A stretch of 64,000 nucleotides of DNA. Source: Noviherbaspirillum saxi (GTDB taxonomy: Bacteria > Pseudomonadota > Gammaproteobacteria > Burkholderiales > Burkholderiaceae_D). The stretch lies in the NCBI RefSeq assembly GCF_003591035.1, contig NZ_QYUO01000002.1, forward strand, positions 930,001 to 994,000, written 5' to 3'. The stretch's first letter is position 1, and every line of letters begins with the position of its first letter. Below are positions 10,831 to 54,566 of this stretch, piece by piece. Under the pieces are notes generated by a model. The model was not told where the DNA came from. It worked only from the letters and a program-made list of their open reading frames with translations, and did no database searches. The translations under genes and the position numbers were made by a program.

Positions 10831-10840
10831 GGAGCCAGAC

Positions 10841-11419
10841 ATGACAATCAAGCCGATACGCCGCATCGTCACCGGTCACGATGCGCAAGGCAAGGCCATC
10901 GTCATCGAGGACGGTCCGCTGCCGACCGTGGTGCCGATCGAAAAGATTCCCGGCACGATGTTCCATGAAATCTGGTCGACCGAAGGCACGCCTGCAGCCG
11001 TGCACAATGGACCGGACCCGACGCTCGGGCCACTGATGCTGCCGCCGCCTAAGCATGGCTCCCGCATCCGCGTGGTCGATATTCCGCCGGATAGCGAAGA
11101 ATACCTGACCCACGGCGCGGCGCGCATGAAAGAGGCGTTTGCGCAGATCGGCGATGCCGCCGCGTCTACGGTCAGAACGGATTCGCCCCATCCGCTGATG
11201 CACCGGACCGAGTCGGTCGATTACGGCGTCGTCCTTGAGGGCGAAATGACGCTGGTGCTCGACGACAGCGAAGTGCTGCTGCATCAGGGCGATGTGGTCG
11301 TGCAGCGTGGCACCAATCACGCGTGGGCAAATCGCTCGGGAAGGATGTGCCGGATGCTGTTCATTCTCATCGACGGCGAATATGACCCGGCGATCCGCGA
11401 CGCGCTGGCGTCACGATAA
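10841..11419 (+). CDS. Cupin-domain protein (FdeF position)
   Basis: A 192-residue protein whose C-terminal half is a single cupin barrel: motif 1 includes the stretch around H-x-T-E-S-V-D-Y-G-V-V-L-E-G-E (about 125-140), and motif 2 is GDVVVQRGTNHAW (about 153-165). These are typical metal-binding cupin motifs. It starts 10 bp after the FAD monooxygenase, with GAGGAG upstream. Cupins in aromatic operons may be isomerases, hydrolases or dioxygenases, and this one cannot be narrowed further. Confidence 0.78.
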   Translation: MTIKPIRRIVTGHDAQGKAIVIEDGPLPTVVPIEKIPGTMFHEIWSTEGTPAAVHNGPDPTLGPLMLPPPKHGSRIRVVDIPPDSEEYLTHGAARMKEAFAQIGDAAASTVRTDSPHPLMHRTESVDYGVVLEGEMTLVLDDSEVLLHQGDVVVQRGTNHAWANRSGRMCRMLFILIDGEYDPAIRDALASR

Positions 11420-20560: not shown

Positions 20561-20563
20561 AAC

Positions 20564-37294: not shown

Positions 37295-38281
37295 TTACCC
37301 GATAAAAGGCTGATATTTCAAAGCAGACGATCCGACCGGTTCGGTTGATTCCTCCACTTTGTGCATAAAATATGTTGCAGCGAGGAGATCGGCGGCACCG
37401 CCTGGAGAGATATTATTGCGTACGAAGTCGTGGTGGCACTTCACGGCAACTGTGCGCCAGTCCGGATTAGCCGTACCCCCTTCTTTTAGAAACGCTGATG
37501 CGCGTTGCCTGACGAACCGGTTGGCAGAGGCTCCACCTCGGTAATAGATATTCGTATCATCCATCTCGGCCATCAATGTGAAGAGCACGTCCACGAGCGC
37601 CCATTCCAAATCTCCTCCTGCCTGGAGAGTCTTTCGCAGGACCGGAAGCCCAACGTTAAACACCGACGGAAACCCCCTGGCAGCCTCTTCACGTGCGCCA
37701 CCGACAAGGTGGGCGTTTGCAACTAGTTGACCGTGTGACAGGCCCGCGCCTCTGTTCATATGGCGGCAGACATCCTCTCCCCAAACGTCTAAAAATACTC
37801 GCCGCACCTTCGTCGCGGTTGGCACAATGTTGATTGCATAACACTGGCCGACTGAAGCGCACAGCAATCCAAGACTGAAGATTGCACCTCGATGTGTATT
37901 GATGCCGTTCGTTGCCTTCAACATCCTGTATTCAGCTGCCAAGCCCAACTGTTTCAGAACGTCAAATGAGGCGCCGTCTCCCCCTGCTGCAGTGATCACG
38001 CCGAAGTATGTTCGTAAGGCGAAAAGGCTGCGCAAAAACGTCTTCGCCGTCATATCCTTATGGCTGCCATTGTCGACAAATGAAACTAAACCAGGCTTTG
38101 GATAGAGTGCGATTTCATGGTAGAGACTCTGGATCGCCAGCCGAGCGACCGCTAAGTGAGAGCGCGGTACAGTAATGCGGCTTGTAAGACCCGTCACGTA
38201 ATTGGTGCTCACTGATGATGTTCTATGATGTTGCAACTGGAAACCAGTGTCCCTAGGGTCAAGGAGAGGTGAACCGTTCAT
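37295..38281 (-). CDS. mdcB: MdcB, triphosphoribosyl-dephospho-CoA synthase
   Basis: A 328-residue protein of the CitG/MdcB family, which makes the precursor of the malonate decarboxylase prosthetic group from ATP and dephospho-CoA. Family hallmarks: ALYPKPGLVSFVDNGSHKDM, GINTHRGAIFSLGLLCA, and near the end CHHDFVRNNISPGGAADLLAATYFM. Its ATG overlaps the mdcG stop (ATGA at 38278-38281), showing translational coupling. It is the last gene of the operon; mdcH is not downstream. Confidence 0.92.
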   Translation of the reverse strand: MNGSPLLDPRDTGFQLQHHRTSSVSTNYVTGLTSRITVPRSHLAVARLAIQSLYHEIALYPKPGLVSFVDNGSHKDMTAKTFLRSLFALRTYFGVITAAGGDGASFDVLKQLGLAAEYRMLKATNGINTHRGAIFSLGLLCASVGQCYAINIVPTATKVRRVFLDVWGEDVCRHMNRGAGLSHGQLVANAHLVGGAREEAARGFPSVFNVGLPVLRKTLQAGGDLEWALVDVLFTLMAEMDDTNIYYRGGASANRFVRQRASAFLKEGGTANPDWRTVAVKCHHDFVRNNISPGGAADLLAATYFMHKVEESTEPVGSSALKYQPFIG

Positions 38282-38955
38282 TGCGTCGTTTCAAATGTAT
38301 GTAGAAGTGTATCCATTTTGGCGAGATAGGCTTTGTGGCACCCCTTCACCAACACTCGGCGTCCGTCGTTGGAGTGACGCGCTGCCTGCCATTCTTTCCA
38401 CGCCACTGCTTCCATGCTCGGGAAAACAACTTCACCGTCCAAGGGCAACTGATCAGCGGTGTGGTCCAACAAATCGACTATCCTTTTCAGTTCTTCTTGT
38501 GTGCGGGGATAGCACAAGATGTCTATATCTGAGTTGTTACGAACATAGGGTTGGCCGGTGATGAACTGCCAGGAAGCAGACCCATATACGCGAAGCGTAA
38601 TGTTGAGGTTAGCAGCTTCCTGTAGCAAAGTAGTGATTCCATCGTGCCAACGAGTCGGCAAGACACTTATCACACGATCTAAAGAAATCGGGGCTGTTGT
38701 TCTAGAGACCGCATCTCGTGGGATTGCAAGTGGAACTCGAGGCCGTGTACCGTCGTCGCGCGGCGGGCCAGCAATCCCGACACAAATCTGATCTTCAGCT
38801 ATTCCTACTTCGTGCCGCCTTGCGATTGCAGGCCAATCTTTGGTACACCACTCCTCTATCAGGGTGACGTTTCCGGGATGGACCTGGTTCATTACTGAGT
38901 CCCAGCCTTCTGACGACAACCACACTAGGAAGTGCCTATTGAGCATTATCGTCAT
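38278..38955 (-). CDS. mdcG: MdcG, malonate decarboxylase holo-ACP synthase
   Basis: A 225-residue nucleotidyltransferase that transfers the phosphoribosyl-dephospho-CoA group onto the acyl carrier subunit MdcC. The nucleotidyltransferase motif is intact: RVYGSASWQFITGQ followed by NNSDIDIL with the two metal-binding Asp. It overlaps mdcE by 20 bp and mdcB by four, as in a compact operon. Confidence 0.9.
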   Translation of the reverse strand: MTIMLNRHFLVWLSSEGWDSVMNQVHPGNVTLIEEWCTKDWPAIARRHEVGIAEDQICVGIAGPPRDDGTRPRVPLAIPRDAVSRTTAPISLDRVISVLPTRWHDGITTLLQEAANLNITLRVYGSASWQFITGQPYVRNNSDIDILCYPRTQEELKRIVDLLDHTADQLPLDGEVVFPSMEAVAWKEWQAARHSNDGRRVLVKGCHKAYLAKMDTLLHTFETTQ

Positions 38956-39646
38956 TCGCGTAGTATTCGATTACCGAGGCAGCCAATTTGCGGCCGCCGC
39001 GGCGATCGCCAATTTGATGCCGGTTATCTTCCTTTGTTGGTGAGTTAAGCGCACCCTTAAGTGCCGCGGCTAAATTTTCGCTCCAGATTTCATGAACGCC
39101 GCCCATGCGGTAATAATTCTCGACGCCCGGCGCAAAAACGGGATTGTCTTTCGCAAGCGAGGTAAGGCGCTCTTCTGCGACTTTTGTAATCCGTGCCATG
39201 GCCGGTAACCCCATTACCCGTATGGTCGCGTCAGGTAAAGCGTAGCAAGAATCAGCCATCAGGCCACTTGTGATGAAGCCTCCTGAGAGAGCTTGATCGT
39301 AAACAAGTCCAATAACTTGGTGACCGCTGCGGCGCGCCAGGTCAATGCATTTCCCAAGATGCGCCATATAGCCATTAATTCCCAGCATTTCATCGCGATG
39401 GCGGAGACGTTGGCCCTGTGTATCAATCAGGATCACTATGGGCTGCCCTGGGGCGTTCTGGATCGTTTCGAGGATAGCATGCGCTTGCGCCATTGCTATC
39501 TCAACCCCGATAGCTACATGATCGGTCGTGCCTATAACCCGTACTGCGGAACCGTTCACTGTCGCTTCGCCGGATAGAAATGACCCTTCCTCGGAAATGC
39601 TATGCCCCTCTGGAAAGAGAAGCTCGGTCAAAGTACGCCATTCCAT
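38936..39646 (-). CDS. mdcE: MdcE, malonate decarboxylase gamma subunit
   Basis: A 236-residue carboxyltransferase-like subunit that, with MdcD, decarboxylates malonyl-S-ACP to acetyl-S-ACP. The crotonase-like core shows IVILIDTQGQRLRHRDEMLGI, LVYDQALSGGFITSGLMAD and LPDATIRVMGLPAMARIT. The start MEWRTLTELLF is preceded by AAGAGGG; an earlier ATG at 39688 lacks homology. It is separated from mdcD by the nitrilase and oxidoreductase genes, whereas mdcD and mdcE are normally adjacent. A 238-bp gap precedes it, holding nothing recognisable. Confidence 0.9.
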   Translation of the reverse strand: MEWRTLTELLFPEGHSISEEGSFLSGEATVNGSAVRVIGTTDHVAIGVEIAMAQAHAILETIQNAPGQPIVILIDTQGQRLRHRDEMLGINGYMAHLGKCIDLARRSGHQVIGLVYDQALSGGFITSGLMADSCYALPDATIRVMGLPAMARITKVAEERLTSLAKDNPVFAPGVENYYRMGGVHEIWSENLAAALKGALNSPTKEDNRHQIGDRRGGRKLAASVIEYYANDDNAQ

Positions 39647-39884
39647 TTTTGCCCTCTTAAGGTGAGTTAGTGGATCGTTGGAAAGCACTGATTAGCACGC
39701 GCGTTCGCGCCCTGCGTATCACTAATATGGCGCTCCATAGCAATGCATCCTTTCCGGAGAAATCCTATGCAAAGGCACTTTCCTCCATTCATAAGCGTGC
39801 GACGCCCATAACTCACAGGCGGGTGAGGAATAGTTTACAACGCCAGGCCAAGGCAGCCGGATGTCGATGCGCTTGCTGTGTAGG

Positions 39885-40892
39885 CTACTTCGCAATTACC
39901 TGAATCCGATTTACTTCATTTCTTGAGCCACTTAAAGGCTGTGTAAGTCCATTAATGTCCGTCGCACGACATGCAATGCGGTGACTGCCGTTTGGAAGGT
40001 TGACCAGCACTTGGAAGCGCTGCCATTCAAATTGGTGCCGTGGCTTCACATCGGCTTCAATCCACGATGCACCGTCATCGACCGATACTTCTACCTTCGA
40101 AACCGGCTGACCAGCCCATGCCCAACCATTCAGATTTACGGGACCTGACTGAACGGTGCTTTGATCTCCGGGCGATGTAATGATCGAATGAGGTGTAGCT
40201 TCCCATACTGGCCGAGTAACTGTCGAGCCGCTTTCTCCTACGGTTTCGTTATACCAAACGGTAGTGAATGGGCTTTGAGGCCGATCACGCTGCGCAGAAA
40301 TCTTGCACAGCCACTTTGTCGAATTCGTTCCAAAGTAACCGGGCACGACCAAGCGGGCTGGGCCCCCTCGATTGATGGATAGCGGCATACCATTCATCGC
40401 ATAGGCAACCAGCACCTCTGTAGAAAGTGCTTTTTCTAAAGGGATGTCCTTTTGATACCTGTCAATCGCTTGGCCACCGTAGCTGCCGCGATCCAGACCT
40501 TCTGACCATATGAACTGTGCGTCTTTTTCAAGGCCAGCCAAATTAAGAAGCACGTCAAGCGGTACGCCCGTCCAGGTCACATTACCCACACGATGAACGG
40601 GCGATGTAGCGGGTTTTAATGGGCTTCCATAGCATTCATGAAACGACGTAACCTCTTTGTACGGTAGTGTTTTAAGATCAGCGAGAGATAAACGCAGGGG
40701 CTTACGTACCAATCCATCTATCGCCAGTATCCATGCACTCTCATCTACCTTAGGTGCACCCATATGAATCGTTTCAAACAAATTCGCGTCACTGGTCAGG
40801 AACTCAGTGAGTTCATGAGGTGGGGGCGATGGCTTGAGATGAAAGCCTTCGAAAACATACCCTGCGAAGGCCTTGCGTTCATTTTCGTTCAT
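39885..40892 (-). CDS. Molybdopterin-dependent sulfite-oxidase-family oxidoreductase
   Basis: A 335-residue enzyme with the Mo-cofactor domain (about 40-225) and C-terminal dimerisation domain (about 235-335). The Mo-ligand Cys is in TSFHECYGSPLK, and cofactor contacts appear in SINRGGPARLVVPGYFG and NSTKWLCKI. There is no signal peptide or Tat motif, so it is probably cytoplasmic, and no heme domain is fused. It lies 30 bp after the nitrilase on the same strand, inside the malonate decarboxylase locus. The reaction is unknown; sulfite oxidation is only one possibility. An oxidation that prepares or clears a nitrile-related compound is speculation. Confidence 0.85.
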   Translation of the reverse strand: MNENERKAFAGYVFEGFHLKPSPPPHELTEFLTSDANLFETIHMGAPKVDESAWILAIDGLVRKPLRLSLADLKTLPYKEVTSFHECYGSPLKPATSPVHRVGNVTWTGVPLDVLLNLAGLEKDAQFIWSEGLDRGSYGGQAIDRYQKDIPLEKALSTEVLVAYAMNGMPLSINRGGPARLVVPGYFGTNSTKWLCKISAQRDRPQSPFTTVWYNETVGESGSTVTRPVWEATPHSIITSPGDQSTVQSGPVNLNGWAWAGQPVSKVEVSVDDGASWIEADVKPRHQFEWQRFQVLVNLPNGSHRIACRATDINGLTQPLSGSRNEVNRIQVIAK

Positions 40893-40922
40893 TTCAAATA
40901 GCCGAAAAGGTTTGGAACCAGG

Positions 40923-41972
40923 TTACATTGACTGTGCGATGTCTTGTTGTAGGTCGAGCGCGGCGGACTGATCCTTGTTCCGCATTGGCGTGTCATTAAA
41001 GCTGATCGGTTCAAGACGCGTTCGATTAACGTTTAGGTTGAAAATATCAAAGCGATTGTAGTAGCCCACTACGTCGTGGAATTGCTTAGGCTCAACGCAG
41101 TCTTCCACGTCAATCTCGGCATACAGAATTCCCTCGTCATTTTGCAAACTATCACCGATTTGTTTGCTTGAAGGCCCAATAAACATAGAGACAGAACGGG
41201 GAGTTTGATCGAGTATTTCTGCTACGGAATTGTCGTGGCTCACCAAGTAGTCGCGCATTGCCTTGTCCATAAAGCCAGAACTGACAATGCCAAATGCCTT
41301 CGCTTCGAAGGAATGTGCGCCAGCCCGAATGCGGACGGCAGCTGCTATATCGTAATTGGCGGCAGTGTTCGTACTACTTGGTTTCTCCGTCGGCCAGATC
41401 GGCGGCCACGCTGAGATATGAATCTGCTCGCCTTGTGCCATTAGCGAAAAGCGTGCAAGAGGATTGGTGTTCTCACCGCAGATTAAAGCCCCAATTTTTC
41501 CAAGACGCGTATTGCTTACTTGCAGGCCAGCTCCGTCACCCGGCGCCCAGACCATCTTCTCATAGAAAGTAGGGACAAGTTTGCGGTGGTGGTTCAGGAT
41601 TTCACCTTCGTCAGAAATCAAGAGATTACTGTTCCATATACCACCAACACTTACGGGGTTCGTCTCACTGATTCCAATTGAGACGAAGATATTGTTTTTC
41701 TTCGCCTCTTGGCAAATACGTTGCACTTGCGGACCATCAACGGCTACGGAGTTTGCCACCATGCGTTTGAAGAAAGCGTGGTTATATATCGGCGCCCACA
41801 ATGCCGCCCAAACGGGAAATGCCGGGATGAACGACTCGGGAAATACAACCAGCTCGGCTCCGTTGTGCGCAGCCTCCCTGATGAGATCGCACACCTTCAA
41901 TGTCGTTGCTTCACGGTTCAGAAAAACCGGAGCGGCATGCACGGTTGCAGCCTTAAATTTTGGATAGATCAT
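40923..41972 (-). CDS. Nitrilase (aliphatic/arylaceto type)
   Basis: A 349-residue nitrilase-superfamily branch 1 enzyme hydrolysing R-CN to acid and ammonia. The triad is visible: Glu46 in VVFPESFIPAFPVW, Lys131 in HHRKLVPTFYEK, Cys165 in GALICGENTNPLARF. The start MIYPKFKAATVHAAP was chosen on family grounds. Gene order mdcD-nitrilase-oxidoreductase-mdcE suggests its product feeds malonate decarboxylase; cyanoacetate (giving malonate) or malononitrile is then the natural substrate. That substrate is an inference from context only. Confidence 0.9.
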   Translation of the reverse strand: MIYPKFKAATVHAAPVFLNREATTLKVCDLIREAAHNGAELVVFPESFIPAFPVWAALWAPIYNHAFFKRMVANSVAVDGPQVQRICQEAKKNNIFVSIGISETNPVSVGGIWNSNLLISDEGEILNHHRKLVPTFYEKMVWAPGDGAGLQVSNTRLGKIGALICGENTNPLARFSLMAQGEQIHISAWPPIWPTEKPSSTNTAANYDIAAAVRIRAGAHSFEAKAFGIVSSGFMDKAMRDYLVSHDNSVAEILDQTPRSVSMFIGPSSKQIGDSLQNDEGILYAEIDVEDCVEPKQFHDVVGYYNRFDIFNLNVNRTRLEPISFNDTPMRNKDQSAALDLQQDIAQSM

Positions 41973-42103
41973 AACGGTTCCACATAAGATTGTTCTGAAG
42001 TCACGATAGCACCGAAGGCTTAAAACCGGTATTCCGAAGAAATGCACACTATCGTGTAAAAATGCTGTCCTGTTTTTCGGAGAAACAAAAGCTAAAACGC
42101 CTG

Positions 42104-43036
42104 TTAATTAAAGGTCAACATGTGGAGCGACCGGTTTCTGATACTTATACGCACCGTATTGACGCGTTCTAAGAATCGATCGATATCGCATAGAGGAAGA
42201 GTGGATGCATCATCGATTCCTACGGCCGTCCATATAGAGGTGGAGTCTGCCATCCCTCCGTATTTATCAATTCGCGCCTGAAGCAAGGCATGCTCATCGC
42301 CAAGTGCTTCGAGCGTTAGTTCGGCAGCCATTTTTTCACTACGGTAGGCATTTATTGCTCCGATAGCTGCATGGCGGAATGCATCCGTGCTATCAGGTAC
42401 GATCCCGTCTGCGTCGTTCATGATGTAGCGGTGCTTCCCGCCGGTCGTTCGCCACACTAGTGCCCGGTCGCGGGAGTCGAATTCTTCAACACCATTGGCC
42501 GTCTCGATGACTTCCGGACCAGACATCCCTAAGCGGGCCTCTTCAGACATTACAATGAAGTTTGTGCATTTGGCTACTATGCCCATGCCACCAAAGCATC
42601 CATTCGAACCGCCGATCAAAGTTATAACAGGGATTCCCGCGGCTCTTACCGCCAGAATCGCACGCATCACTTCAGATACCGCAATAAGGCCGGCATTGGC
42701 TTCGTGTAATCTCACACCGCCGGTATCAAGTAGCAATAGAAGGGCGGTGCAATTCTGCCGCACGGCACGTTTCGATAGACCCACGAGTTTAGCCCCGTGT
42801 ACTTCGCCGACAGCACCTCCCATAAATCTACCTTCCTGAGAGGCTATCAATACTTTACTTCCTCCAAGGAGACCTTCTCCAGTTATCACGCCATCATCAA
42901 ATGCCACCGGCAAATACAATTGGGCGAGGTGGGGACTCGTCATGCGCAGTTCAGGGCGTAGAAGCTCCCGGAAGCTACCCGGATCAAGGATGTGTTCTAT
43001 ACGTTGTCGAGCTGAGGCTTCTAAAAAGCTATTCAT
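42104..43036 (-). CDS. mdcD: MdcD, malonate decarboxylase beta subunit
   Basis: A 310-residue carboxyltransferase-like subunit of biotin-independent malonate decarboxylase. Landmarks: GGAVGEVHGAKLVGLSKRAVRQ, LLLLDTGGVRLHEANAGLIAVSEVMRA, IGGSNGCFGGMGIVAKC, and SEEARLGMSGPEVIETANGVEEFDSRDRALVWRTTGGKH. The start at MNSFLEASARQRI follows mdcC after about 50 bp. With MdcE it removes CO2 from malonyl-S-ACP. Confidence 0.92.
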   Translation of the reverse strand: MNSFLEASARQRIEHILDPGSFRELLRPELRMTSPHLAQLYLPVAFDDGVITGEGLLGGSKVLIASQEGRFMGGAVGEVHGAKLVGLSKRAVRQNCTALLLLLDTGGVRLHEANAGLIAVSEVMRAILAVRAAGIPVITLIGGSNGCFGGMGIVAKCTNFIVMSEEARLGMSGPEVIETANGVEEFDSRDRALVWRTTGGKHRYIMNDADGIVPDSTDAFRHAAIGAINAYRSEKMAAELTLEALGDEHALLQARIDKYGGMADSTSIWTAVGIDDASTLPLCDIDRFLERVNTVRISIRNRSLHMLTFN

Positions 43037-43084
43037 TTTTGACCTATGTCTTGGGATGAGCTGGCACGGCACGATGGGCCAGCG

Positions 43085-43414
43085 CTAGCCCCCTAGTTTG
43101 GAAGATTTGCTGGTGGCGACTAGCTCTGCCGCTTGATCTAACCGAAGGCGGACAACTGCAGGGGTCGCTCCCATGTCATTGATTGAGACCTTTGTATCCG
43201 TAAAGAGCCATGCCTGATGAAAATCCGCGACCACTGCCTTCCAGGTTGCATCGAATCCGGTCACAGACGTGTTGACTTCAAAAGTACACGCACCACTGTG
43301 TGGGCTTGGTTCAATTAGTATCTCCAGGTTTCCGGACGCTACAACACCGGCTATGACGGGCTTTTGCACACTGGAGTACTTTCCATCAAGGTGTTTAAAA
43401 ACAAGCCTTTGCAT
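43085..43414 (-). CDS. mdcC: MdcC, malonate decarboxylase acyl carrier subunit (delta)
   Basis: A 109-residue acyl carrier protein of malonate decarboxylase, unrelated to classical ACP. The serine carrying the dephospho-CoA prosthetic group should be Ser27 in GVVASGNLEIL (GSGD in Klebsiella MdcC). The conserved end motif reads INDMGATPAVVRLRLDQAAEL. It sits between mdcA and mdcD, the usual order. Confidence 0.9.
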   Translation of the reverse strand: MQRLVFKHLDGKYSSVQKPVIAGVVASGNLEILIEPSPHSGACTFEVNTSVTGFDATWKAVVADFHQAWLFTDTKVSINDMGATPAVVRLRLDQAAELVATSKSSKLGG

Positions 43415-43428
43415 TTCAGGTCCTCACG

Positions 43429-45108
43429 TTACCAATTTCGGAATTGACGAGGTGGATCGTAGAGCCCACCGGAAAGACGCACTAAATCTTTCATTGTTTT
43501 GGCGGCAAGTAGGTCTCTCGTGGCTAGCGATTTATCGATACCGAGATCTGCCGGACGTTGAATGATTCCCCGATCCCGTAGATTCTCTACGACGCGTCTG
43601 TCACGCCCCATACCGACCGGCGTATATCCGGCGACGCCTCTAATAGCCTGTTCACGTTCTTCAACATTGCGGCAGAGAAGAAGATTGGCGATGCCTTCTT
43701 CGGTAAGAATGTGCGTGACATCCTCACCGTAGATCATTACCGGCGGAAGGGGCATGGATGCCTGCTCCGCAAGTTGCCATGCGTCGAGTTTTTCAACAAA
43801 GGCGCTATGCATATGCTCGCGGAACGTTTCGACCATCTGCACTACTAATTTCTGGCCGCGGGGAATCTGTCCCGAGGCTTGCCTTCCTTGTTTCCCTGCT
43901 TTCAACCAAGCGGCACTGGCATGTCTGCGTCCACGGGAATCCGATCCCATGTTCGGTGCGCCCCCAAAACCAGAAATTCTTCCAAGCGTCGCCGTTGATG
44001 AATTACCCATCAGGTCGATCTGAAGTGTTGACCCGATAAACATATCGCACGCATAGTGACCTGCTACTTGGCATAGAGCACGGTTACTGCGCATTGATCC
44101 ATCAGGACCGACGAAGAAAATATCCGGGCGGGCACGAATGTAGTTTTCCATACCCAGTTCAGATCCGAACGAGTAGACCGATTCGACGAAACCTGCTTCA
44201 ATCGCCGGGATCAGGGTCGGGTGCGGATTGAGTGCCCAATGACGTGCGATCTTTCCGCGGAGTCCTAGCGCCTCGCCATAAGTCGGTAAGATCAGTTCAA
44301 TTGCCGCCGTATCAAAACCAATACCGTGGTTAAGACGGTTGACTTCATACTCCTTATAGATTCCTTTAATAGCCATCATGGCCATAAGAATCTGAATCTC
44401 CGAAATTTGGGCAGGATCACGAGTGAAGAGTGGCTCAATATAATGCGGTCGGGGCGCTTCGACTACAAAGTCAACCCAGTCGGCAGGCACATCGATCCGC
44501 GGAAGTTGATCAACAATCTGGTTAACCTGAACGATTACGATCCCGCCTTTGAACGCAGTCGCCTCGAGAATTGCGGGAGTGTCCTCGGTATTTGGCCCTG
44601 TATAGAGATTGCCCTGGCGATCGGCGTACTGAGCGGCGACCAGGGCAACACGTGGCGTAAGGTCAACGAAATAACGCGCAAATAGTTCGAGGTAGGTATG
44701 GATAGCACCTATATTGAGCTTCCCTGACGATACTAGCTTTGCTAATCGGTTCGCCTGGGGCCCAGAGAAAGAAAAGTCGAGCTTTGATGCGATTCCCTTT
44801 TCGAATACGTCCAGATGCGCTGGAAGTGCGATTACTGACTGGATCATGTGGAGGCCATTTATTCGCTGCGGGTCCACCGACCGAAGGGATTCAGCTAGAA
44901 AATCAGCCTGTTTCTGATTGTTGCCTTCAAGGCATACTCGATCGCCTGGCTCTAGAACCGAATGAAGAAGGGGAACAATTTCCAATGCAGGCAGGATTTT
45001 TCCACTCAACGCTAAACCCAACGTTTCCTGTGCACGTTGCATCCTCGAAATACGATTGGCCTGCTGAGATCGCCAAGATAATTTCTCATTTAAAAGGTTT
45101 ATAGCCAT
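43429..45108 (-). CDS. mdcA: MdcA, malonate decarboxylase alpha subunit
   Basis: A 559-residue acetyl-S-ACP:malonate ACP transferase that swaps acetate for malonate on MdcC, releasing free acetate. It begins with the typical WRSQQANRISRM and has conserved stretches PGDRVCLEGNNQKQADFLAESL, YADRQGNLYTGPNTEDTPAI and LNHGIGFDTAAIELILPTYGE. First gene of the minus-strand operon and divergent from a LysR gene 191 bp away, whose product probably controls it. The start at MAINLLNEKLSWRSQ was preferred over 45171 by family length. Confidence 0.92.
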   Translation of the reverse strand: MAINLLNEKLSWRSQQANRISRMQRAQETLGLALSGKILPALEIVPLLHSVLEPGDRVCLEGNNQKQADFLAESLRSVDPQRINGLHMIQSVIALPAHLDVFEKGIASKLDFSFSGPQANRLAKLVSSGKLNIGAIHTYLELFARYFVDLTPRVALVAAQYADRQGNLYTGPNTEDTPAILEATAFKGGIVIVQVNQIVDQLPRIDVPADWVDFVVEAPRPHYIEPLFTRDPAQISEIQILMAMMAIKGIYKEYEVNRLNHGIGFDTAAIELILPTYGEALGLRGKIARHWALNPHPTLIPAIEAGFVESVYSFGSELGMENYIRARPDIFFVGPDGSMRSNRALCQVAGHYACDMFIGSTLQIDLMGNSSTATLGRISGFGGAPNMGSDSRGRRHASAAWLKAGKQGRQASGQIPRGQKLVVQMVETFREHMHSAFVEKLDAWQLAEQASMPLPPVMIYGEDVTHILTEEGIANLLLCRNVEEREQAIRGVAGYTPVGMGRDRRVVENLRDRGIIQRPADLGIDKSLATRDLLAAKTMKDLVRLSGGLYDPPRQFRNW

Positions 45109-45235
45109 AAACTCTTTGCGATAATGGGTTGAAGTTGAACTGCTCTTGCAGAACTCAGGAGGGTTCCGCAAACGTTTGGAGGCGAACGGCCAGTTAACAC
45201 TATCAGCTCGGCGCTAAATAGCGAAACGGAAATAA

Positions 45236-45258
45236 CGCACCTATTTGTGCAAAAATGC
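45236..45258. promoter_or_regulatory. Candidate LysR operator between mdcA and LysR gene
   Basis: Two overlapping dyads lie in the 191-bp divergent region: GCAC-CTATTT-GTGC (45236-45249) and TGCAAAAATGCA (45247-45258). They lie about 40-65 bp before the LysR start and 130 bp before mdcA, plausible for a LysR-type protein controlling both directions. Binding is inferred from symmetry and position only. Confidence 0.4.
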
Positions 45259-45299
45259 ATAGGGCTATGGACGAAGGCGCCTAGTATTCAGGAGGAGTT

Positions 45300-46202
45300 A
45301 TGCAGTTTCAGCATCTAAATTGGGATGATCTCCGCGTTTTCCTCGAGGTGGCACGCGCGGGCAACATATCTAAGTCTGCAAAGCGGCTAAACATTGATCA
45401 TTCAACGGCCAGCAGACGTATAACGCAATTAGAGTTCTCGCTCGGGTCCAGCCTGTTCGAGCGCAATCGAAGCGGGCTCGTACTTAATGCTCTAGGTCAG
45501 CGCCTGCTTGTCTACGTTGAAGGTATTGAAAGCAATGTCCTAGCCATTGGCGAGGCTGTAGGTGCAAAGGAACTCGAGCTGAGCGGGACAGTGCGCGTTG
45601 GGACGATGGAAGGTATTGCGTCGCTATATTTGGCCGAGCGGTTCTTGGGACTTCGAGAGCGGTACGGGGCGTTGCGCATCGAACTAGTCACTTCGTCTCA
45701 GCAACTACACGTCACCCGCCGCGAAGCTGACATCTTTTTGAGCTTCTTCCGGCCTGAGGGCAGAGGATTAGACGCTGAGATGATTGGTAAATTTAACCTC
45801 AATCTTTATGCTACGAGAAGTTACCTCGATAAACGTGGAGTTCCTACTTCGAGGGCGGATCTTAGGGACCATGACTTCGTCGGATATGTACATGATCTGA
45901 TCCAGGTAGATACCGTCCGGTGGCTCGACGAAGTTATCGTCAACCCGAATCTCGTTTTTCATTCCACCAGCATGATTTCCCAGATGCATGCCGCGAGTAG
46001 CGGACTTGGGATAGTTCTTTTACCAACTTTCGCTGTACCGGAAAGACTCGGTCTTGAACGTTTACCGGTACAAGACGTAAAGGTCGAGCGTAAAATCTGG
46101 TTAAGTGCCCATCAAGACTTGCGTTATATTCCGCGTGTCAAGGCGGTTGTGCAATATCTTATGGCTATCGTTAGGAAAGATATGGAATTCCTGTCCACTT
46201 AG
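45300..46202 (+). CDS. LysR-family regulator of the malonate/nitrile locus
   Basis: A 300-residue LysR-type regulator. The N-terminal helix-turn-helix reads NWDDLRVFLEVARAGNISKSAKRLNIDHSTASRRITQLE, and the effector domain starts near ELSGTVRVGTMEGIASLYLAERFL. The HSTASRR form places it in a different LysR branch from the classical MdcR proteins I recall. It follows AGGAGG and is divergent from mdcA. The MHS permease gene follows on the same strand after 148 bp. Its ligand is probably the imported acid or nitrile. Confidence 0.87.
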   Translation: MQFQHLNWDDLRVFLEVARAGNISKSAKRLNIDHSTASRRITQLEFSLGSSLFERNRSGLVLNALGQRLLVYVEGIESNVLAIGEAVGAKELELSGTVRVGTMEGIASLYLAERFLGLRERYGALRIELVTSSQQLHVTRREADIFLSFFRPEGRGLDAEMIGKFNLNLYATRSYLDKRGVPTSRADLRDHDFVGYVHDLIQVDTVRWLDEVIVNPNLVFHSTSMISQMHAASSGLGIVLLPTFAVPERLGLERLPVQDVKVERKIWLSAHQDLRYIPRVKAVVQYLMAIVRKDMEFLST

Positions 46203-46350
46203 CCAATGTGAGCGTGCATTTTCGCAAAGCACAACGACAGATGCTCTTTTTTCGCACAATGGTCTGCAGAATTGCTCGTATTTAAGCGTCACGAAATCTT
46301 GTAATGTGCTTGCAACGATTGTTCGTTCTAGGTGATTACAGGAGACAGAA

Positions 46351-47958
46351 ATGGAATATCTTGACGCGGCCGCCCGACCAAGCGGCAGTATCGACAATGA
46401 AGCTAAGGAGATGCGAAAGGTGATCTTCGGATCATCCCTCGGTACTGCATTCGAATGGTATGACTTCTTTGTATTTGGCACGCTCGCGGCAATACTCGGC
46501 CCGCTATTTTTTTCAAAGGAACTCGGCGAGACAGGCGCCTTTCTCGCGGGCCTAGCGACCTATGGAGCTGGTTTGGTCTTGCGACCATTCGGCTCACTCT
46601 TGTTCGGGAAAATGGGTGACATTGCTGGTCGGAAGACAACTTTCATGATCACGATGGCCCTTATGGGTGTTTCGACCGCCGGAGTGGGCCTGTTACCTAC
46701 CTACGAGCAGGCAGGGATCATCGCTCCGATCTTGCTTGTCATCCTGAGATGTTTACAGGGCCTGGCGCTGGGTGGTGAATATGGTGGCGCGGCTACGTAT
46801 GTTGCAGAACATGCTGCTCCAGGACGCCGCGGATATGCTACAGGTTGGATTCAGATCTGCGCTACCGTAGGCTTTTTCCTCTCGCTGGTTATCGTGCTGT
46901 CGTGCCAGACTGCGCTCGGCCCAGAACAGTTTAAAGCCTGGGGCTGGCGGATTCCGTTCCTTATTTCCGTGGGATTGTTCGGCGTCTCCATGTATATCCG
47001 GTCGCAGCTCAACGAGTCGCCCGTCTTTATGAAGATGAAAGCTGCCGGCCATCTTACAAAGTCGCCGATCAAAGATAGTTTCGGAAACTGGGAAAATATG
47101 AAAGTTGTCCTGCTCGCATTGTTCGGTGCGGTAGCGGGCTCCGGCATCATCTGGTACACCGGCCAGTTCTATGCCCTCATTTTCCTGCAGAAGTCGCTTA
47201 AAATGGAATTCGGGACTGCATACATCTTGGTCTCGATTGCGTTGGCCATGGCTACTCCATTCTTCGTGATTTTTGGCTGGCTGTCGGACGTAATCGGACG
47301 TAAGAAGATTATGATGTTTGTCTTTCTGCTCGCGGCCGTGACATATGTGCCGATTTTCCAAGGACTTACCCATTATGGGAATCCGGCTTTGGAAAGAGCA
47401 ATTGCAACTTCACCAGTTACGGTTGCATCGAATGAATGCTCCATTCGCGCATTCTCAGGACCGCAGACCGACTGCGAGAAGGTCAAGGAGTTTCTTAATA
47501 CTGCTTCCGTGCCGCATACTCTAGTCGCAAAGAGCGGCCCTGGAGTAACGACAAAAATTGGTAATAAAGTCGTTGAAGGTCTTGATGTCGCAGGTCTCAA
47601 AGCAGCTATCAAATCCGCCCAGTATCCGGAAAAGGCATTGGATAGCGAGATTAACAAGCCGATGGTTGTACTGTTACTGTTCATTCTCGTGATGTACGTG
47701 TGTATGGGGTACGGCCCGCTTGCTGCCTTGTTAGTGGAGCTCTTCCCGACACGTATCCGCTATTCGAGCATCTCTATGCCGTATCACATTGGTACCGGTT
47801 ATTTTGGTGGGTTCATGCTGTACTTCGCCACCTTGATCACTACGAGTACTGGAGATATTTATGCAGGGTTGTATTATCCGATTGTGATCGCTGTATTGTC
47901 TTTAATCGTCGGTCTTTTCTGGCTTCCTGAGACAAAGGACTTTGACGTTAGTCGTTAA
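46351..47958 (+). CDS. MHS-family permease with large internal hydrophilic loop
   Basis: A 535-residue metabolite:H+ symporter of the major facilitator superfamily. Helix 1 region reads GTAFEWYDFFVFGTLAAILG, the MHS hallmark; loop 2-3 is GKMGDIAGRKTTFM. Between helices about 10 and 11 is a hydrophilic domain of roughly 100 residues (about 340-440) with two Cys (SNECSIRAF, QTDCEKV), seen in one subgroup of bacterial MHS carriers. The start follows CAGGAGACAGAA. As mdcF, madLM or mdcL are absent, this is the likely importer of malonate or its precursor. Confidence 0.88.
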   Translation: MEYLDAAARPSGSIDNEAKEMRKVIFGSSLGTAFEWYDFFVFGTLAAILGPLFFSKELGETGAFLAGLATYGAGLVLRPFGSLLFGKMGDIAGRKTTFMITMALMGVSTAGVGLLPTYEQAGIIAPILLVILRCLQGLALGGEYGGAATYVAEHAAPGRRGYATGWIQICATVGFFLSLVIVLSCQTALGPEQFKAWGWRIPFLISVGLFGVSMYIRSQLNESPVFMKMKAAGHLTKSPIKDSFGNWENMKVVLLALFGAVAGSGIIWYTGQFYALIFLQKSLKMEFGTAYILVSIALAMATPFFVIFGWLSDVIGRKKIMMFVFLLAAVTYVPIFQGLTHYGNPALERAIATSPVTVASNECSIRAFSGPQTDCEKVKEFLNTASVPHTLVAKSGPGVTTKIGNKVVEGLDVAGLKAAIKSAQYPEKALDSEINKPMVVLLLFILVMYVCMGYGPLAALLVELFPTRIRYSSISMPYHIGTGYFGGFMLYFATLITTSTGDIYAGLYYPIVIAVLSLIVGLFWLPETKDFDVSR

Positions 47959-48367
47959 TCACGAACGTGAATGGGGCGAGGTCCATTAGCCGCAGCCCCA
48001 TGTTTCCTTGTCCTTGTTTCGGCGAATTCCTATTCGCCAGCGAGCGGGGGACTGTAGGAGCAGCCATCGCGTTACCATAGCCCGCGCTGGCTCTTCGATT
48101 CGGGATGTGAGCTCAACTAATGCGCAGCTGATTCCGCGCCTAGGAATGACGGTACAAAAGCACCAAACCAGAGATGGCTTAGTTACCCTACGGTGTCTCC
48201 TTCTTCCAACGACTAAAAAAATGAATCCGATCAAGAGTCCGTGAAGTCGCGCGTCGCAGTCCTTGTCGCATTCTTATGCGTAAGGTGGCCTTCGACAAAG
48301 CTTGCATAACTAGGTAGCGTTTGAAGAATCGAACCTACTGCTGTTTTAATTTACTACATATCAAACT
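47959..48367. other. 409-bp stretch upstream of acs, no convincing gene
   Basis: Overlapping short frames exist on both strands (for example 48008-48244) but none has a ribosome site or family resemblance. The acs start is preceded by AT-rich sequence (TTTAATTTACTACATATC) that could hold a promoter but lacks a visible Shine-Dalgarno. Confidence 0.4.
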
Positions 48368-50347
48368 ATGACAATTCATGAGTCCGAGATGAGGGTATTT
48401 TTACCGCCTGTTGCATTGGCAGAGAGAGCAACAGTGTCGAGCATGGAAGCATATACGGCAATGTGCACCGCAGCGGATGAAGACTACGAGGGCTTCTGGG
48501 CAAAACTTGCTAATGAAAATCTCCATTGGCACAAACCCTTCACAAAGACGTTAAACGAGTCAGATGCTCCCTTCTATAGATGGTTTGACGACGGACGTCT
48601 GAATGTCTCTTACAATTGCCTGGATCGAAATTTGCAGCATGGTAATGCTGACAAGACGGCGGTGATTTTTGAGGCCGATGACGGTGAGATAACCAATATC
48701 ACCTATTCGGATATGCACGAGCGCGTTTGCCAGTTTGCGAATGGGCTCAAGTCGCTCGGCATCAAGAAGGGCGATCGCGTCGTGATCTACATGCCGATGT
48801 CGGTCGAAGGCATCGTCGCGATGCAGGCTTGTGCCCGTATTGGTGCCACCCACTCTGTCGTCTTTGGAGGCTTTTCCGCAAAGTCCTTGCAGGAACGCAT
48901 AATCGATGCAGGTGCGGTCGCTGTCATCACCGCCGATGAACAAGTACGCGGCGGGAAGCGGCTACCGCTTAAGACGATTGTCGACGAAGCGATCAATGGA
49001 GACGTCTGTGATTTCGTGCGGAATGTGATCGTGTATCGGCGAACCGGCGGTGACGTCGAAATGATTGCTGATCGCGATCTTTGGCTGCATGAGGTCATCG
49101 CAGACCAGCCCGCCGACTGCGAGCCGGAATGGGTCGATGCCGAGCATCCGCTGTTCATCCTCTATACCTCCGGCTCGACCGGCAAACCCAAGGGCGTCCA
49201 GCATTCCTCGGCTGGCTACCTGCTGTGGGCGATGCTGACCATGAAGTGGACTTTCGACATCAAGCCCACTGACATCTTCTGGTGCACCGCCGACATCGGC
49301 TGGGTCACCGGCCACACCTATATCGCCTATGGCCCGCTGGCCGTAGGCGCAACCCAGATCGTGTTCGAAGGCGTGCCGACCTATCCCAATGCCGGCCGTT
49401 TCTGGGACATGATTGCCAAACACAAGGCCACCATTTTCTATACCGCGCCGACGGCGATCCGCTCGCTGATCAAGGCCGCCGACGCCGATGCCGAAGTGCA
49501 TCCAAAGAAATACGATCTGTCCAGCCTGCGCCTGCTGGGCTCGGTCGGCGAGCCGATCAATCCGGAAGCCTGGATGTGGTACTACCGCAATGTGGGCAAT
49601 GAACACTGCCCGATCGTCGATACCTTCTGGCAAACCGAGACCGGCGGCCACATGATCACGCCGCTGCCGGGTGCCACACCGATGGTGCCGGGTTCATGCA
49701 CGATGCCGCTGCCGGGCATCATGGCCGCGGTGGTCGATGAAACCGGCAACGACTTGCCGAATGGACAGGGCGGCATCCTGGTGGTCAAGCGGCCCTGGCC
49801 ATCGATGATCCGCACCATCTGGGGCGATCCGGAGCGGTTCAAGAAGAGTTATTTCCCGGAAGAGCTGGGCGGCAAGATTTACCTGGCTGGCGACGGGGCG
49901 GTGCGCAATGACAAGACCGGTTACTTCACGATCACCGGTCGCATCGACGATGTCTTGAATGTGTCGGGTCACCGCATGGGCACGATGGAAATCGAATCGG
50001 CGCTGGTGGCCAATCCGCTGGTGGCGGAAGCGGCGGTGGTGGGCAAGCCGGACGAGACCACGGGCGAATCGATTTGCGCCTTCGTGGTGCTGAAGCGGGC
50101 ACGGCCGAGCGGCGAGGAAGCCAGGCAGATTGCCAAGGAATTGCGCGACTGGGTGGCCAGGGAAATTGGTCCGATCGCCAAGCCCAAGGAAATCCGATTT
50201 GGCGACAACCTGCCCAAGACCCGTTCCGGCAAGATCATGCGCCGCTTGCTGCGCGTACTGGCCAAGGGCGAGCAGATCACGCAAGATATCTCCACGCTGG
50301 AAAACCCAGCCATCCTTCAACAGCTAAAGACGGTAGTAACCACCTGA
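48368..50347 (+). CDS. acs: Acetyl-CoA synthetase
   Basis: A 659-residue AMP-forming acetyl-CoA synthetase. Core motifs are intact: P-loop [31 protein letters not shown] segment, [18 protein letters not shown], hinge [21 protein letters not shown] and the C-terminal acetylation-site motif [11 protein letters not shown]. It would activate the acetate released by malonate decarboxylase, closing the pathway. Codon use changes along the gene: the first 300-600 bp use AGA, AGG, TTA and ATA freely like the neighbouring island, the rest is GC-rich. No clear ribosome site was found at the start; an internal ATG at 48395 is also possible. Confidence 0.92.
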
Positions 50348-50408: not shown

Positions 50409-50870
50409 ATGAAATCAATGATTATTCGATCGCTCATTTTGCTTACTACAGCGCTTTTTCTGACAAGCACAGGTGCAGCCGAGCGTGCATCGAAAGAAGA
50501 AGCAGTCGCGATGGTGAAAAAGGCAGTCGCATATTACAAGAAGAACGGTAGAGACAAGGCACTGACGGCTTTTAGCGATGACAAAGGTCAGTTCAGAGAT
50601 CGGGAACTATTTCTCGTGGTCTTAGACGACGGAGGGCAAGTGCTAGCTCATTCAGCGTTACCAAAGATGATTGGCGCAAACATAAGCGAAATGAAAGACA
50701 GTAATGGTGTGTTCATTACAAAAGGCTTCTACAAAGCTGTGAAAAACAGCAGCCATGGGTGGAGTGACGAATATGTCTTCACTAACCCGCACACTAAAAC
50801 AATGGAGAAAAAACATACTTACGTAGAAAAAGTCGACAATCTACTCATCGCATGTGGAGTGTATAAGTAG
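50409..50870 (+). CDS. Secreted single-Cache (sCache_2) protein
   Basis: A 153-residue protein with a clear signal peptide (IIRSLILLTTALFLTSTGAAE) and one Cache domain: EAVAMVKKAVAYYKKNGRDKALTAFSD, FLVVLDDGGQVLAHSALPKMIGANISEMKD, and W-x-D-EYVFTNPHTK-KKHTYVEKVDNLLIACGVY. Cache domains bind small acids such as acetate, propionate or pyruvate. With no membrane anchor or output domain it would act in the periplasm as a soluble binding protein. It follows AAGGAAAAGC, 61 bp after acs. Confidence 0.8.
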   Translation: MKSMIIRSLILLTTALFLTSTGAAERASKEEAVAMVKKAVAYYKKNGRDKALTAFSDDKGQFRDRELFLVVLDDGGQVLAHSALPKMIGANISEMKDSNGVFITKGFYKAVKNSSHGWSDEYVFTNPHTKTMEKKHTYVEKVDNLLIACGVYK

Positions 50871-52889: not shown

Positions 52890-54566
52890 ATGAACAATAC
52901 CAAACAAGCGCGATTCATCGGCTTTCGGCGCACCGCATTTGCCGCGGCGGCGGCGGCCTTGTGCGCGGGCTTCTGCGCCAGCGCGAACGCATTCGAAATC
53001 GATACCGGCAATGACGACGTGCAGATGCGCTTCGATAACACCATCCGTTACAACTTCGGCCATCGCGTCGAAAAGCAAAATCCCAGCATCCTGCTAAACC
53101 TGAACGCCGACGACGGTAACCGTAATTTCAAGAAGGGCAGCACGGTAACCAACCGTATCGACTTGCTGACTGAATTCGACGTTGTCTATCAAAAGAAATT
53201 CGGCGCCCGCGTGTCCGCAGCATCCTGGTATGACCAGGCGTATTCGGGCGGCTTCGACAACACCAGCCTCGCCACCTCCAACCATTTGGTCAACGGTACG
53301 CCGGCCTTTGGATTGTCTCCGTATGCAAATCGCTATTACAACGGCTTGTCCGGTGAATTCCTCGACGCCTTTGTGTTTGGCGGTTTCGACGTTGGCAACA
53401 CGGCGGTTACGGTGCGCGCCGGCCGCCATACCGTGAATTGGGGCGAAGCGTTGCTGGGCAGCGGCGCTATCCACGGCGTTACGTATGCACAGGCACCGCT
53501 GGATCAGGCCAAGGGCTTTGCCAATCCGGGCGTCGAAGCCAAAGAATTGTTCCTGCCCCAGACACAGATCTCCAGCACGATTCAGGCAACACGGGAATTG
53601 TCGCTTGCCGGTCAATACTTCTTTGAATGGGATGCCACCCGCATTCCTGAAGGTGGCTCTTATCTGGGCTTCAACGATGCGCTGCAATTCGGCGGCGAAT
53701 CGCTGTATCTCGCACCTGGCGTGCGTGCGGCTCGCGGCAACGACATCAAGCCGAAGAACCGCGGTGACTGGGGTCTGGCCGCTCGCTGGAGCCCCGAATG
53801 GCTGGACGGCACGATGGGCTTCTATGTGCGCCAGTTCTCCGACAGACTGCCGCAGCTCTCCGTCATGGCCGCCGCGCCGCGCCAGTATTTCATGAGCTAC
53901 GCCGACAACGTCGACATGTACGGCATCAGTCTGACCAAGCAGATCGCCGGCATCAGTTTTGGCGCAGATCTGAACTACCGCAAGAACATGCCGCTCAACA
54001 GCGATGCGGTCACCATTACTTCGCTGGCAGCCTTGCCAACGCCCGGTAATGTCCCTGGCGCACGCGGCGACACGATGCATGGCGTGCTCAATGCCCTCGG
54101 CTCGCTTCCCGCTTCGCCCTTGTGGGAAGGCGGTTCCTGGGCCGCCGAGATGACCTGGAACCGCTGGCTGTCGGTGAACCAGGGACATGCATTTTTCAAG
54201 GGCCGTAACGGCTACACCGGCATCGACCGCGTCAGCAAGGACTTCGTCGGCCTGGCATTGAACTTCACACCGGTCTGGTACCAGGTGTTCCCGGGTGCGG
54301 ACTTGTCGATGCCGATGAGCTACTCGCGCGGTATGTGGGGTAACGCCGCAGCGGTGCAATTTGGCGGCAACAAGGCTGCTGGTACGTTCGCGGTCGGCCT
54401 TGGCCTGGACCTGTACAGCAAATACCGCTTTGATCTGAAGTATGTCGACTACTTCGGTCGTTCCCAAGTGAACCCGGCGACCGGCCAAATGACAGCTGTG
54501 AACGGCAGCGGTACATGGCTGCAAGATCGCGGCACGGTATATCTGACATTCAAGACCGCATTCTAA
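52890..54566 (+). CDS. DUF1302 family outer-membrane protein (cluster 2)
   Basis: A 558-residue exported protein, the same length as the cluster 1 copy. Signal peptide: FAAAAAALCAGFCASANAFEI. The mature start IDTGNDDVQMRFDNTIRYN mirrors IDVGNPDVKVRFDNTVKYS of the paralogue. Shared landmarks: GRHTVNWGEALLGSGAIHG and C-terminal RGTVYLTFKTAF, ending in Phe like a beta-barrel. It starts a four-gene set with DUF1329, a Ycf48-like protein and an RND exporter. Confidence 0.88.
   Translation: MNNTKQARFIGFRRTAFAAAAAALCAGFCASANAFEIDTGNDDVQMRFDNTIRYNFGHRVEKQNPSILLNLNADDGNRNFKKGSTVTNRIDLLTEFDVVYQKKFGARVSAASWYDQAYSGGFDNTSLATSNHLVNGTPAFGLSPYANRYYNGLSGEFLDAFVFGGFDVGNTAVTVRAGRHTVNWGEALLGSGAIHGVTYAQAPLDQAKGFANPGVEAKELFLPQTQISSTIQATRELSLAGQYFFEWDATRIPEGGSYLGFNDALQFGGESLYLAPGVRAARGNDIKPKNRGDWGLAARWSPEWLDGTMGFYVRQFSDRLPQLSVMAAAPRQYFMSYADNVDMYGISLTKQIAGISFGADLNYRKNMPLNSDAVTITSLAALPTPGNVPGARGDTMHGVLNALGSLPASPLWEGGSWAAEMTWNRWLSVNQGHAFFKGRNGYTGIDRVSKDFVGLALNFTPVWYQVFPGADLSMPMSYSRGMWGNAAAVQFGGNKAAGTFAVGLGLDLYSKYRFDLKYVDYFGRSQVNPATGQMTAVNGSGTWLQDRGTVYLTFKTAF

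Follow-up and report, generated by a model that had tools for sequence, protein, structure and literature searches.

Biotin-independent malonate decarboxylase (mdc) operons, rhizobial matAB(C) clusters, pairs of aldoxime dehydratase and nitrilase genes, branch-1 nitrilases and cyanide dihydratases, and the sulfite oxidase family enzymes SorA, SorT, and SoxC are the closest described counterparts of a locus that we analyzed in Noviherbaspirillum saxi. The locus occupies positions 37295 to 50347 of a 64,000-nucleotide stretch (contig NZ_QYUO01000002.1, positions 930,001 to 994,000, forward strand), which we refer to as the window. It combines mdc genes with a nitrilase gene (NIT) and a gene for a molybdopterin enzyme of the sulfite oxidase fold (SUOX). 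We consider it fairly probable that this is an accessory catabolic locus, in which NIT would convert cyanoacetate to malonate, the malonate decarboxylase complex (Mdc) would convert malonate to acetate and CO2, Acs would activate acetate to acetyl-CoA, and SUOX would act upstream on the source of the nitrile.

The window resembles and departs from the described gene clusters in several ways. As in mdc operons, it carries mdcA, mdcC, mdcD, mdcE, mdcG, and mdcB, each above at least one curated malonate decarboxylase cut-off (NCBIfam); MdcA, MdcC, MdcD, and MdcE are intact, and MdcB and MdcG, which serve the prosthetic group, are present too. Unlike those operons, it has NIT and SUOX between mdcD and mdcE, lacks mdcH, and carries a LysR regulator of a NIT-linked type and an MHS-family permease where a known malonate importer would be expected. 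The rhizobial matAB(C) clusters are approached by Rhizobium sp. CIAT894 (L087), where Rid, NIT, and SUOX lie beside genes for an SLC13 permease, malonyl-CoA synthase, and malonyl-CoA decarboxylase. In contrast, the window uses Mdc and Acs, and a genome-collection search gave no malonyl-CoA decarboxylase match in its genome. Oxd-like genes lie near NIT relatives in four loci (L010, L023, L027, and L074, the last also with SUOX), as in aldoxime dehydratase-nitrilase pairs. The genome of the window, unlike these, has no match to the aldoxime dehydratase family PF13816, a search in which control genomes were silent too, so that absence is not proven.

Linkage of the nitrilase to malonate genes

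NIT (positions 40923 to 41972, minus strand) encodes a CN_hydrolase of the nitrilase branch (PF00795, 136 bits). Its likeliest start is the ATG at 41972, which yields 349 amino acids, the same length as a 97% identical relative (P0001). A preliminary description of the window had reported an intact triad of Glu46, Lys131, and Cys165; in the 349-residue form these positions are exact, and the second glutamate is Glu138. Across an alignment of 69 NIT rows, Lys131, Glu138, and Cys165 occur in 69/69 and Glu46 in 66, with a gap in the other 3. The CN_hydrolase fold and Glu-Lys-Cys triad are those of branch-1 nitrilases. Among solved structures, NIT lies closest to cyanide dihydratases and nitrilases (PDB 28to, 9er3, 6zby, and others), with which it shares a Glu-Lys-Glu-Cys active site and aligns over ~315 residues. 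It is nevertheless distant from them (best match, 182 bits), and none of the 28 matched solved sequences is close to it. Its motif is CGENTNPL, versus CWEH in three cyanide-degrading enzymes shown in the alignments, and it scored under the cut-off for Nit6803-type nitrilases (TIGR04048; 217 versus 502.6 bits).

NIT relatives adjoin malonate genes, or lie within ~12 kb of them, in seven places of a maximum-likelihood NIT tree. The malonate genes encode Mdc in some of these loci and an unrelated malonyl-CoA route (MatB plus malonyl-CoA decarboxylase) in others. Because this linkage recurs in seven tree places and with two unrelated malonate routes, malonate is the best-supported product of NIT and cyanoacetate (NC-CH2-COO-) its likeliest substrate, with ammonia as the second product. 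The tree held 69 rows from 88 matched loci; five duplicate loci were left out, and rows with less than 50% identity or fewer than 230 aligned residues were dropped. The malonate-linked rows are the window, L083, L060, L087, L034, L027, and L048 with L011/L013.

To count such linkages, we used a single pattern-based scan of the genome collection, which returned 54 loci, 41 of them with NIT at 50% identity or more (L001 to L037, L045, L046, L048, and L049). Malonate genes were present on the fetched stretch in five of the 41 (L011, L013, L027, L048, and L034), or four if L011 and L013 are one. By chance, ~0.07 of 41 loci would be expected (Poisson P ~ 1e-6 for at least four), given 4.5-Mb genomes, the prevalences of mdcA and malonyl-CoA decarboxylase in genome samples, and gene positions that the model takes as random although catabolic genes cluster. 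In L011 and L013, a symporter gene, NIT, and mdcACDEGB are accompanied by mdcH and a LysR gene, with NIT directly before mdcA. The mdc operon is ~2 kb from NIT in L048 (Amphritea atlantica) and ~8 kb away in L027, while L034 joins NIT to genes for a TRAP transporter, malonyl-CoA decarboxylase, and MatB. L046, near-identical to L034, ends shortly past NIT.

Three further loci come from other, unevenly sampled collections and stand outside the 41-locus count. In L060 (genome G179), the NIT open reading frame (ORF) overlaps that of malonyl-CoA decarboxylase by 17 bases, with no mdcA match; the second is the Rhizobium locus L087 described above. The third, L083, from a plasmid of Variovorax boronicumulans from a legume root, reads SUOX-NIT, LysR, a pyridoxal phosphate (PLP) enzyme, LysR, acs, mdcH-B-G-E-D-C-A, and SLC13. 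It thus has the window's set of NIT, SUOX, LysR, acs, mdcA to mdcE, mdcG, and mdcB in another order. Beyond that set it carries mdcH, the PLP enzyme, the SLC13 permease, and a symporter like that beside NIT elsewhere, and it gave no MHS match by tblastn. On the stretches fetched for close relatives of L083 (L084, L004, and L006) and of L087 (L073, L089, L090, and L091), malonate genes are absent. Insertion of NIT and SUOX exactly between mdcD and mdcE, which the preliminary description proposed to look for in other genomes, occurred in no other locus fetched; the broader association of NIT with malonate genes did recur. We therefore rejected the idea that the arrangement is an oddity of the window, since both the NIT-SUOX pair and the malonate link are found elsewhere.

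Among 72,556 plasmid records, NIT matched 109 and mdcA matched 48. Both were found in three Variovorax and six Bradyrhizobium records among those listed, and in two of the three Variovorax records the genes are >330 kb apart. Two more Bradyrhizobium records were listed for SUOX plus mdcA; in NZ_CP064685 the two are ~94 kb apart, i.e., not adjacent.

Some of these loci have features of their own. L011 (Bacteroidia metagenome-assembled genome Bin_39) and L013 (Thauera sp. Sel9) are near-identical, their NIT genes agreeing at 323 of 324 letters, probably because a contig was misbinned or the locus was transferred very recently. In L048, mdcH-like pieces lie immediately past NIT, between it and LysR (~10558 to 11224), in addition to an mdcH-like match located at the mdc operon. 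Burkholderia accounts for 37 of the plasmid records matched by NIT, with B. glumae in the majority among those listed.

The window locus as an accessory copy

Pfam and NCBIfam profile scans of 16 window proteins confirmed the identities and order of the genes in the preliminary description. The eight minus-strand genes, presumably cotranscribed, run mdcA, mdcC, mdcD, NIT, SUOX, mdcE, mdcG, mdcB, and three genes, for a LysR regulator, the MHS permease, and Acs, diverge from them on the plus strand. The alpha subunit gene mdcA (43429 to 45108) could extend to 45171; the longer form scored 977 bits with PF16957 and 952 bits with TIGR01110, and the 559-residue form was used to search for relatives. 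It is followed by mdcC for the acyl carrier protein, or delta subunit (43085 to 43414; PF06857 and TIGR03130 over cut-off), and mdcD for the beta subunit (42104 to 43072; TIGR03133 364 bits and NF005530 397 bits, both over cut-off). Beyond NIT and SUOX lie mdcE for the gamma subunit (38936 to 39688; PF06833 and TIGR03134 over cut-off), mdcG for the holo-ACP (acyl carrier protein) synthase (38278 to 38955; TIGR03135, 153.5 bits versus a cut-off of 99.7), and mdcB for the triphosphoribosyl-dephospho-CoA synthase (37295 to 38281; TIGR03132, 309 bits versus 282). Gaps are 14 bases between mdcA and mdcC, 12 between mdcC and mdcD, 131 between mdcD and NIT (with the ATG at 41972), 30 between NIT and SUOX, and 196 between SUOX and mdcE, while mdcE, mdcG, and mdcB overlap.

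The genome (3 contigs, 6.5 Mb) contains another mdc locus on contig C3 (G000:C3:963898; L059), ordered A-C-D-E-G-B-mdcH, whose mdcA is 81% identical to that of the window; the window locus is therefore a second, accessory copy. NIT is rarer than mdcA, which was found in 40 of 399 genomes of an order sample (E 1e-150), as against 4 of 399 for NIT (E 1e-100) and 5 of 398 genomes of a phylum sample (E 1e-95), own genome included in both NIT counts. Named best mdcA matches include Noviherbaspirillum, Massilia, Herminiimonas, and Undibacterium, genera of the Oxalobacteraceae.

The divergent genes suggest how the locus might be regulated and supplied. The LysR gene (45300 to 46202, plus strand; PF03466/PF00126) clusters at 40 to 55% identity with LysR genes of NIT loci; genes of 32 loci make up its cluster, all of them NIT loci and two of them the same place, and by this sequence clustering it is of the NIT-linked type. 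It would have arrived together with NIT, and its probable signal is the nitrile or a precursor. The MHS-family permease (46351 to 47958, plus strand) scored 332 bits with TIGR00883, under the cut-off of 443, and is the likely importer; consistent with the preliminary description, no MdcF, MadLM, SLC13, or TRAP protein was among the 16 scanned. Finally, acs (48368 to 50347, plus strand), identified by profile scan as an acetate-CoA ligase gene, is the third close copy in the genome.

Several observations weigh against the proposed route from cyanoacetate to acetyl-CoA. The locus lacks mdcH: tblastn with mdcH of L083 and of L059 found none in the window (best E 0.037), and the missing protein could be supplied in trans by the other mdc locus. 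Nor is acs locus-specific, given two further copies at 88 to 89% identity. The substrate specificity of the MHS permease, in turn, is unreadable from sequence. For these three reasons the view that one locus encodes the full route lacks support in that form. A nitrilase feeding Mdc, as the preliminary description had supposed, is supported by the recurrent linkage, which points to cyanoacetate, or to a nitrile that gives rise to it, as the substrate. The randomness assumed by the chance model also counts here, as does the finding that 36 of the 41 NIT loci have no malonate gene on the fetched stretch (some stretches being short); such cells may therefore rely on mdc or mat genes at other sites, or NIT may have a different substrate. 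The window row sits on a long branch near the base of the tree, beside L060 and outside any close group with good support. The fork that parts it from L060 has no strong support (91/79), and L048 groups weakly with L011/L013, so the seven places could be one fewer or one more.

Close relatives of the pair add to these points. P0001 and P0121, at 97% and 91% identity to NIT and SUOX, both come from a JGI contig of 26,425 bases, and the relatives P0004 and P0125 share a contig size of 46,920; other sizes >5 kb common to the compared parts of the two lists are 14,737, 24,779, 86,386, and 6,909,234. Equal sizes point to a shared contig without proving it. Among the best 120 mdcA matches, none was on a contig of 26,425 or 46,920 bases. 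Because the P0001/P0121 contig seems to have no mdcA, NIT-SUOX can probably exist without this mdc, and both contigs speak against the fusion with mdc being old or general.

The P0001/P0121 contig is one ground for an alternative in which NIT acts on beta-cyanoalanine, made by Vicia and Lathyrus, or on another amino-acid nitrile, and in which a NIT-SUOX insertion among mdc genes happened by chance and gained only a promoter. This would also suit the rhizobial NIT-SUOX pairs that adjoin homoserine-type genes, and an aspartate ammonia-lyase gene near the pair in L070 and L087 would fit aspartate as the product. We nevertheless regard it as unlikely: it does not account for the seven tree places in which NIT is linked to one or the other of two unrelated malonate routes, and the NIT of L013 immediately precedes mdcA with no SUOX present. 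Malononitrile, which the preliminary description had raised as a substrate, was favored by nothing in the analysis; together with cyanoacetamide, it was set aside as a natural substrate for want of support in the loci read.

SUOX and the possible source of the nitrile

SUOX (39885 to 40892, minus strand; PF00174 153 bits, PF03404 44.6 bits) shares its fold with SorA, SorT, and SoxC. We aligned it and its relatives with SorA (27 rows matched; 25 after two duplicates were dropped). The Mo ligand Cys104 and Tyr236 of SorA were kept in 25/25 rows and His57 in 24/24 rows with a letter there. The window protein lacks, unlike SorA, Arg55 and Arg109, which we take to be the sulfite-binding arginines. 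Across the alignment, the Arg55 column holds Thr in 5 rows, Val in 12, Ile in 1, and Leu in 6, with one row without data, and the Arg109 column is empty in 25/25; the L062 row (33% identity, ~5 kb from NIT) has an Arg near that column, which may be misaligned. Both arginines are lost in 23/23 NIT-linked rows (L062 and L095 excluded). SUOX also scored under the cut-offs for SorA, SorT, and SoxC (152/600, 163/570, and 179/420 bits), and shows no signal or leader peptide by visual inspection; the 16 window proteins scanned include no cytochrome partner for it. Because both sulfite-binding arginines are lost, SUOX is probably not a sulfite oxidase, and on these residues sulfite is held unlikely as its substrate. 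Its reaction is probably new, judging from the lost sulfite site and the tie to a nitrilase.

The fold, the Mo ligand, and the transsulfuration-type PLP enzymes among some neighbors could still be taken to mean that SUOX is a true sulfite or organic-sulfur oxidase and that the locus handles a sulfur-bearing nitrile. With Thr, Val, Ile, or Leu in place of Arg55 and an empty Arg109 column in every NIT-linked row, and with family cut-offs far from reached, we consider this very improbable.

On plasmids, SUOX almost always lies close to NIT. SUOX matched 59 plasmid records (E 1e-40), in 56 of which NIT could be placed, 50 within 1.5 kb and 53 within 5 kb. Within the genome of the window itself, the next SUOX match is at only 33%, so no second close copy is present. 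In the remaining three of the 56, from Neorhizobium, NIT is 17 to 21 kb from the best SUOX place, and two of them have a second SUOX place. Two Bradyrhizobium records have no NIT position among the matches listed, and L095 (Sinorhizobium chiapasense) has no NIT within 9 kb and an interrupted SUOX. By source field, counted by eye and with some strains present twice, 50/59 records name a legume or legume root, 24 of these Pisum, Vicia, Lathyrus, Lens, or Vavilovia, and 9/59 name no plant. This share is weak as enrichment because rhizobial plasmids mostly come from legumes anyway; the three Variovorax legume-root records are more telling than the rhizobial ones.

Two side observations concern SUOX relatives. 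On a Neorhizobium galegae plasmid (L097; CP090555.1 919442-960380), one of the three Neorhizobium records above, a 30-residue NIT remnant lies between Rid and SUOX (~19814 to 20939), ~9 kb from nod genes, with an intact-looking NIT ~21 kb off. Six relatives at 51 to 55% identity (P0133, P0168, P0181, P0184, P0212, and P0239) are named as ascomycete proteins (Zasmidium, Colletotrichum, Elasticomyces, and Fusarium).

Gene company differs between NIT loci with and without SUOX. In 19 of the 41 loci, the gene immediately preceding NIT is acetate-symporter-like (SSS), and the annotated plasmid loci L071, L072, and L086 have a DUF485 gene with the symporter. SUOX occurs in 0/19 symporter-NIT loci versus 6 others of the 41 (Fisher P = 0.02, kinship not corrected); one of these six, L006, has a weaker symporter match 6.6 kb off. 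On plasmids, L092 combines the symporter with SUOX, as do L083 and L093 at a greater distance. The SUOX loci L004, L006, L028, L083, and L084 have a transsulfuration-type PLP enzyme, whereas L073, L087, L089, L090, and L091 have a class V aminotransferase and Rid, and L094 (Phyllobacterium, Vicia) has both of the latter with a cysteine-synthase-family gene. Nitronate monooxygenase genes lie near NIT-SUOX in L092 (Methylobacterium nodulans pMNOD01) and L093 (Bradyrhizobium p192_1, Acmispon nodules). As separate observations, the DUF485-symporter-NIT genes of L072 come with a LysR gene next to conjugation genes, and a tautomerase gene in L092 and a methylmalonate-semialdehyde dehydrogenase gene in L093 lie near NIT-SUOX.

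As a frequent partner of NIT, SUOX may act upstream on a compound that yields the nitrile, a role that is a guess guided by gene company. The likeliest candidate step would be N-O bond chemistry on an oxime or an isoxazolin-5-one, because an aldoxime dehydratase gene stands by NIT in a few loci. Cyanoacetic acid and isoxazolin-5-one are isomers, and the latter is the cyclic ester that 3-(hydroxyimino)propanoate forms. Nitronate monooxygenase as a neighbor hints at 3-nitropropanoate. Given PLP enzymes, Rid, aldoxime dehydratase, and nitronate monooxygenase among some neighbors, isoxazolin-5-one toxins of legumes would be a hypothetical upstream source of cyanoacetate. We offer tentatively, as a doubtful extension, that NIT-SUOX is the central part of a pathway, widespread and often carried on plasmids, that degrades legume isoxazolin-5-one toxins. 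In such a pathway, the PLP lyase and Rid, where present, would free the ring from its amino-acid conjugate, SUOX (or a heme aldoxime dehydratase) would turn isoxazolin-5-one into cyanoacetate, NIT would give malonate, and Mdc or MatAB would yield acetyl units. L092 and L093 would possibly be joint islands for 3-nitropropanoate and isoxazolinone breakdown. By tblastn, neither a PLP lyase nor Rid nor Oxd was matched in the window locus, which counts against this source for the window itself; transsulfuration-type enzyme homologues on contig C1, at 51% and 41%, may be housekeeping. In leaf beetles, 3-nitropropanoate is esterified to an isoxazolin-5-one glucoside (PMC4839037). The portions of open texts available to us cover occurrence and biosynthesis only and gave no direct evidence for conversion of isoxazolin-5-one to cyanoacetate.

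Pea offers a meeting point for these strands. Isoxazolin-5-ones reportedly occur in root exudates of pea and sweet pea, going by the title of a 1982 paper by Kuo et al. Plasmid pRL8 of R. johnstonii 3841 (L089) carries Rid-NIT-SUOX near homoserine dehydrogenase; the plasmid is described as pea-rhizosphere specific and its homoserine dehydrogenase gene as specifically upregulated there (PMC3333776). The main text of that study, in the portions available, mentions no nitrilase and gives no expression value for the pRL8 nitrilase. If isoxazolin-5-ones are the source, SUOX would be a molybdoenzyme that catalyzes a novel reaction, and pRL8 would equip a pea symbiont with a pathway for a known pea exudate, joining that exudate to the pea-rhizosphere plasmid of Rhizobium.

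A different legume toxin, beta-aminopropionitrile from Lathyrus, could also lead to cyanoacetate. It or a derivative would be oxidized to cyanoacetaldehyde and cyanoacetate before NIT and Mdc act, leaving SUOX some redox role, and the PLP enzymes near NIT-SUOX in several loci would fit. We think this quite improbable, as no amine oxidase or aldehyde dehydrogenase is among the 16 window proteins scanned and the aldehyde dehydrogenases near rhizobial loci lie with homoserine dehydrogenase.

Open literature and sequence context

In the open PubMed Central (PMC) literature, with subscription journals largely outside, we found no work coupling cyanoacetate, nitrilase, and malonate, and any claim of novelty for the coupled enzymes is limited to that scope. 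In the portions available, malonate decarboxylase and nitrilase co-occur in one text, on arylmalonate decarboxylase, cyanoacetic acid appears with nitrilase as an unrelated synthesis reagent, cyanoacetate appears with nitrilase in an unrelated reference title, and isoxazolin with nitrilase gave nothing relevant by title or start of abstract. No open PMC text joined pRL8 and nitrilase. If the proposed route through NIT, Mdc, and Acs is correct, with flux toward acetyl-CoA, it would be a dedicated bacterial path from cyanoacetate, repeatedly assembled from known parts, and it would provide a likely substrate for a nitrilase clade of legume symbionts and plant-associated bacteria.

The surrounding sequence adds a few details. 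Promoter and terminator scanning of the locus found fewer sites than in shuffled sequence and was uninformative for that reason. The leading 25 kb of the window, used as a query against plasmid records, had short partial matches only. G+C content is 49 to 54% across 37 to 49 kb and 55 to 69% in 12 of 16 other kilobases profiled (30 to 58 kb), with 32 kb and 50 to 52 kb as low as the mdc-NIT locus. Downstream of acs lie a Cache-domain gene (50409 to 50870) and then a gene for a DUF1302 family protein (52890 to 54566; PF06980, 372 bits).

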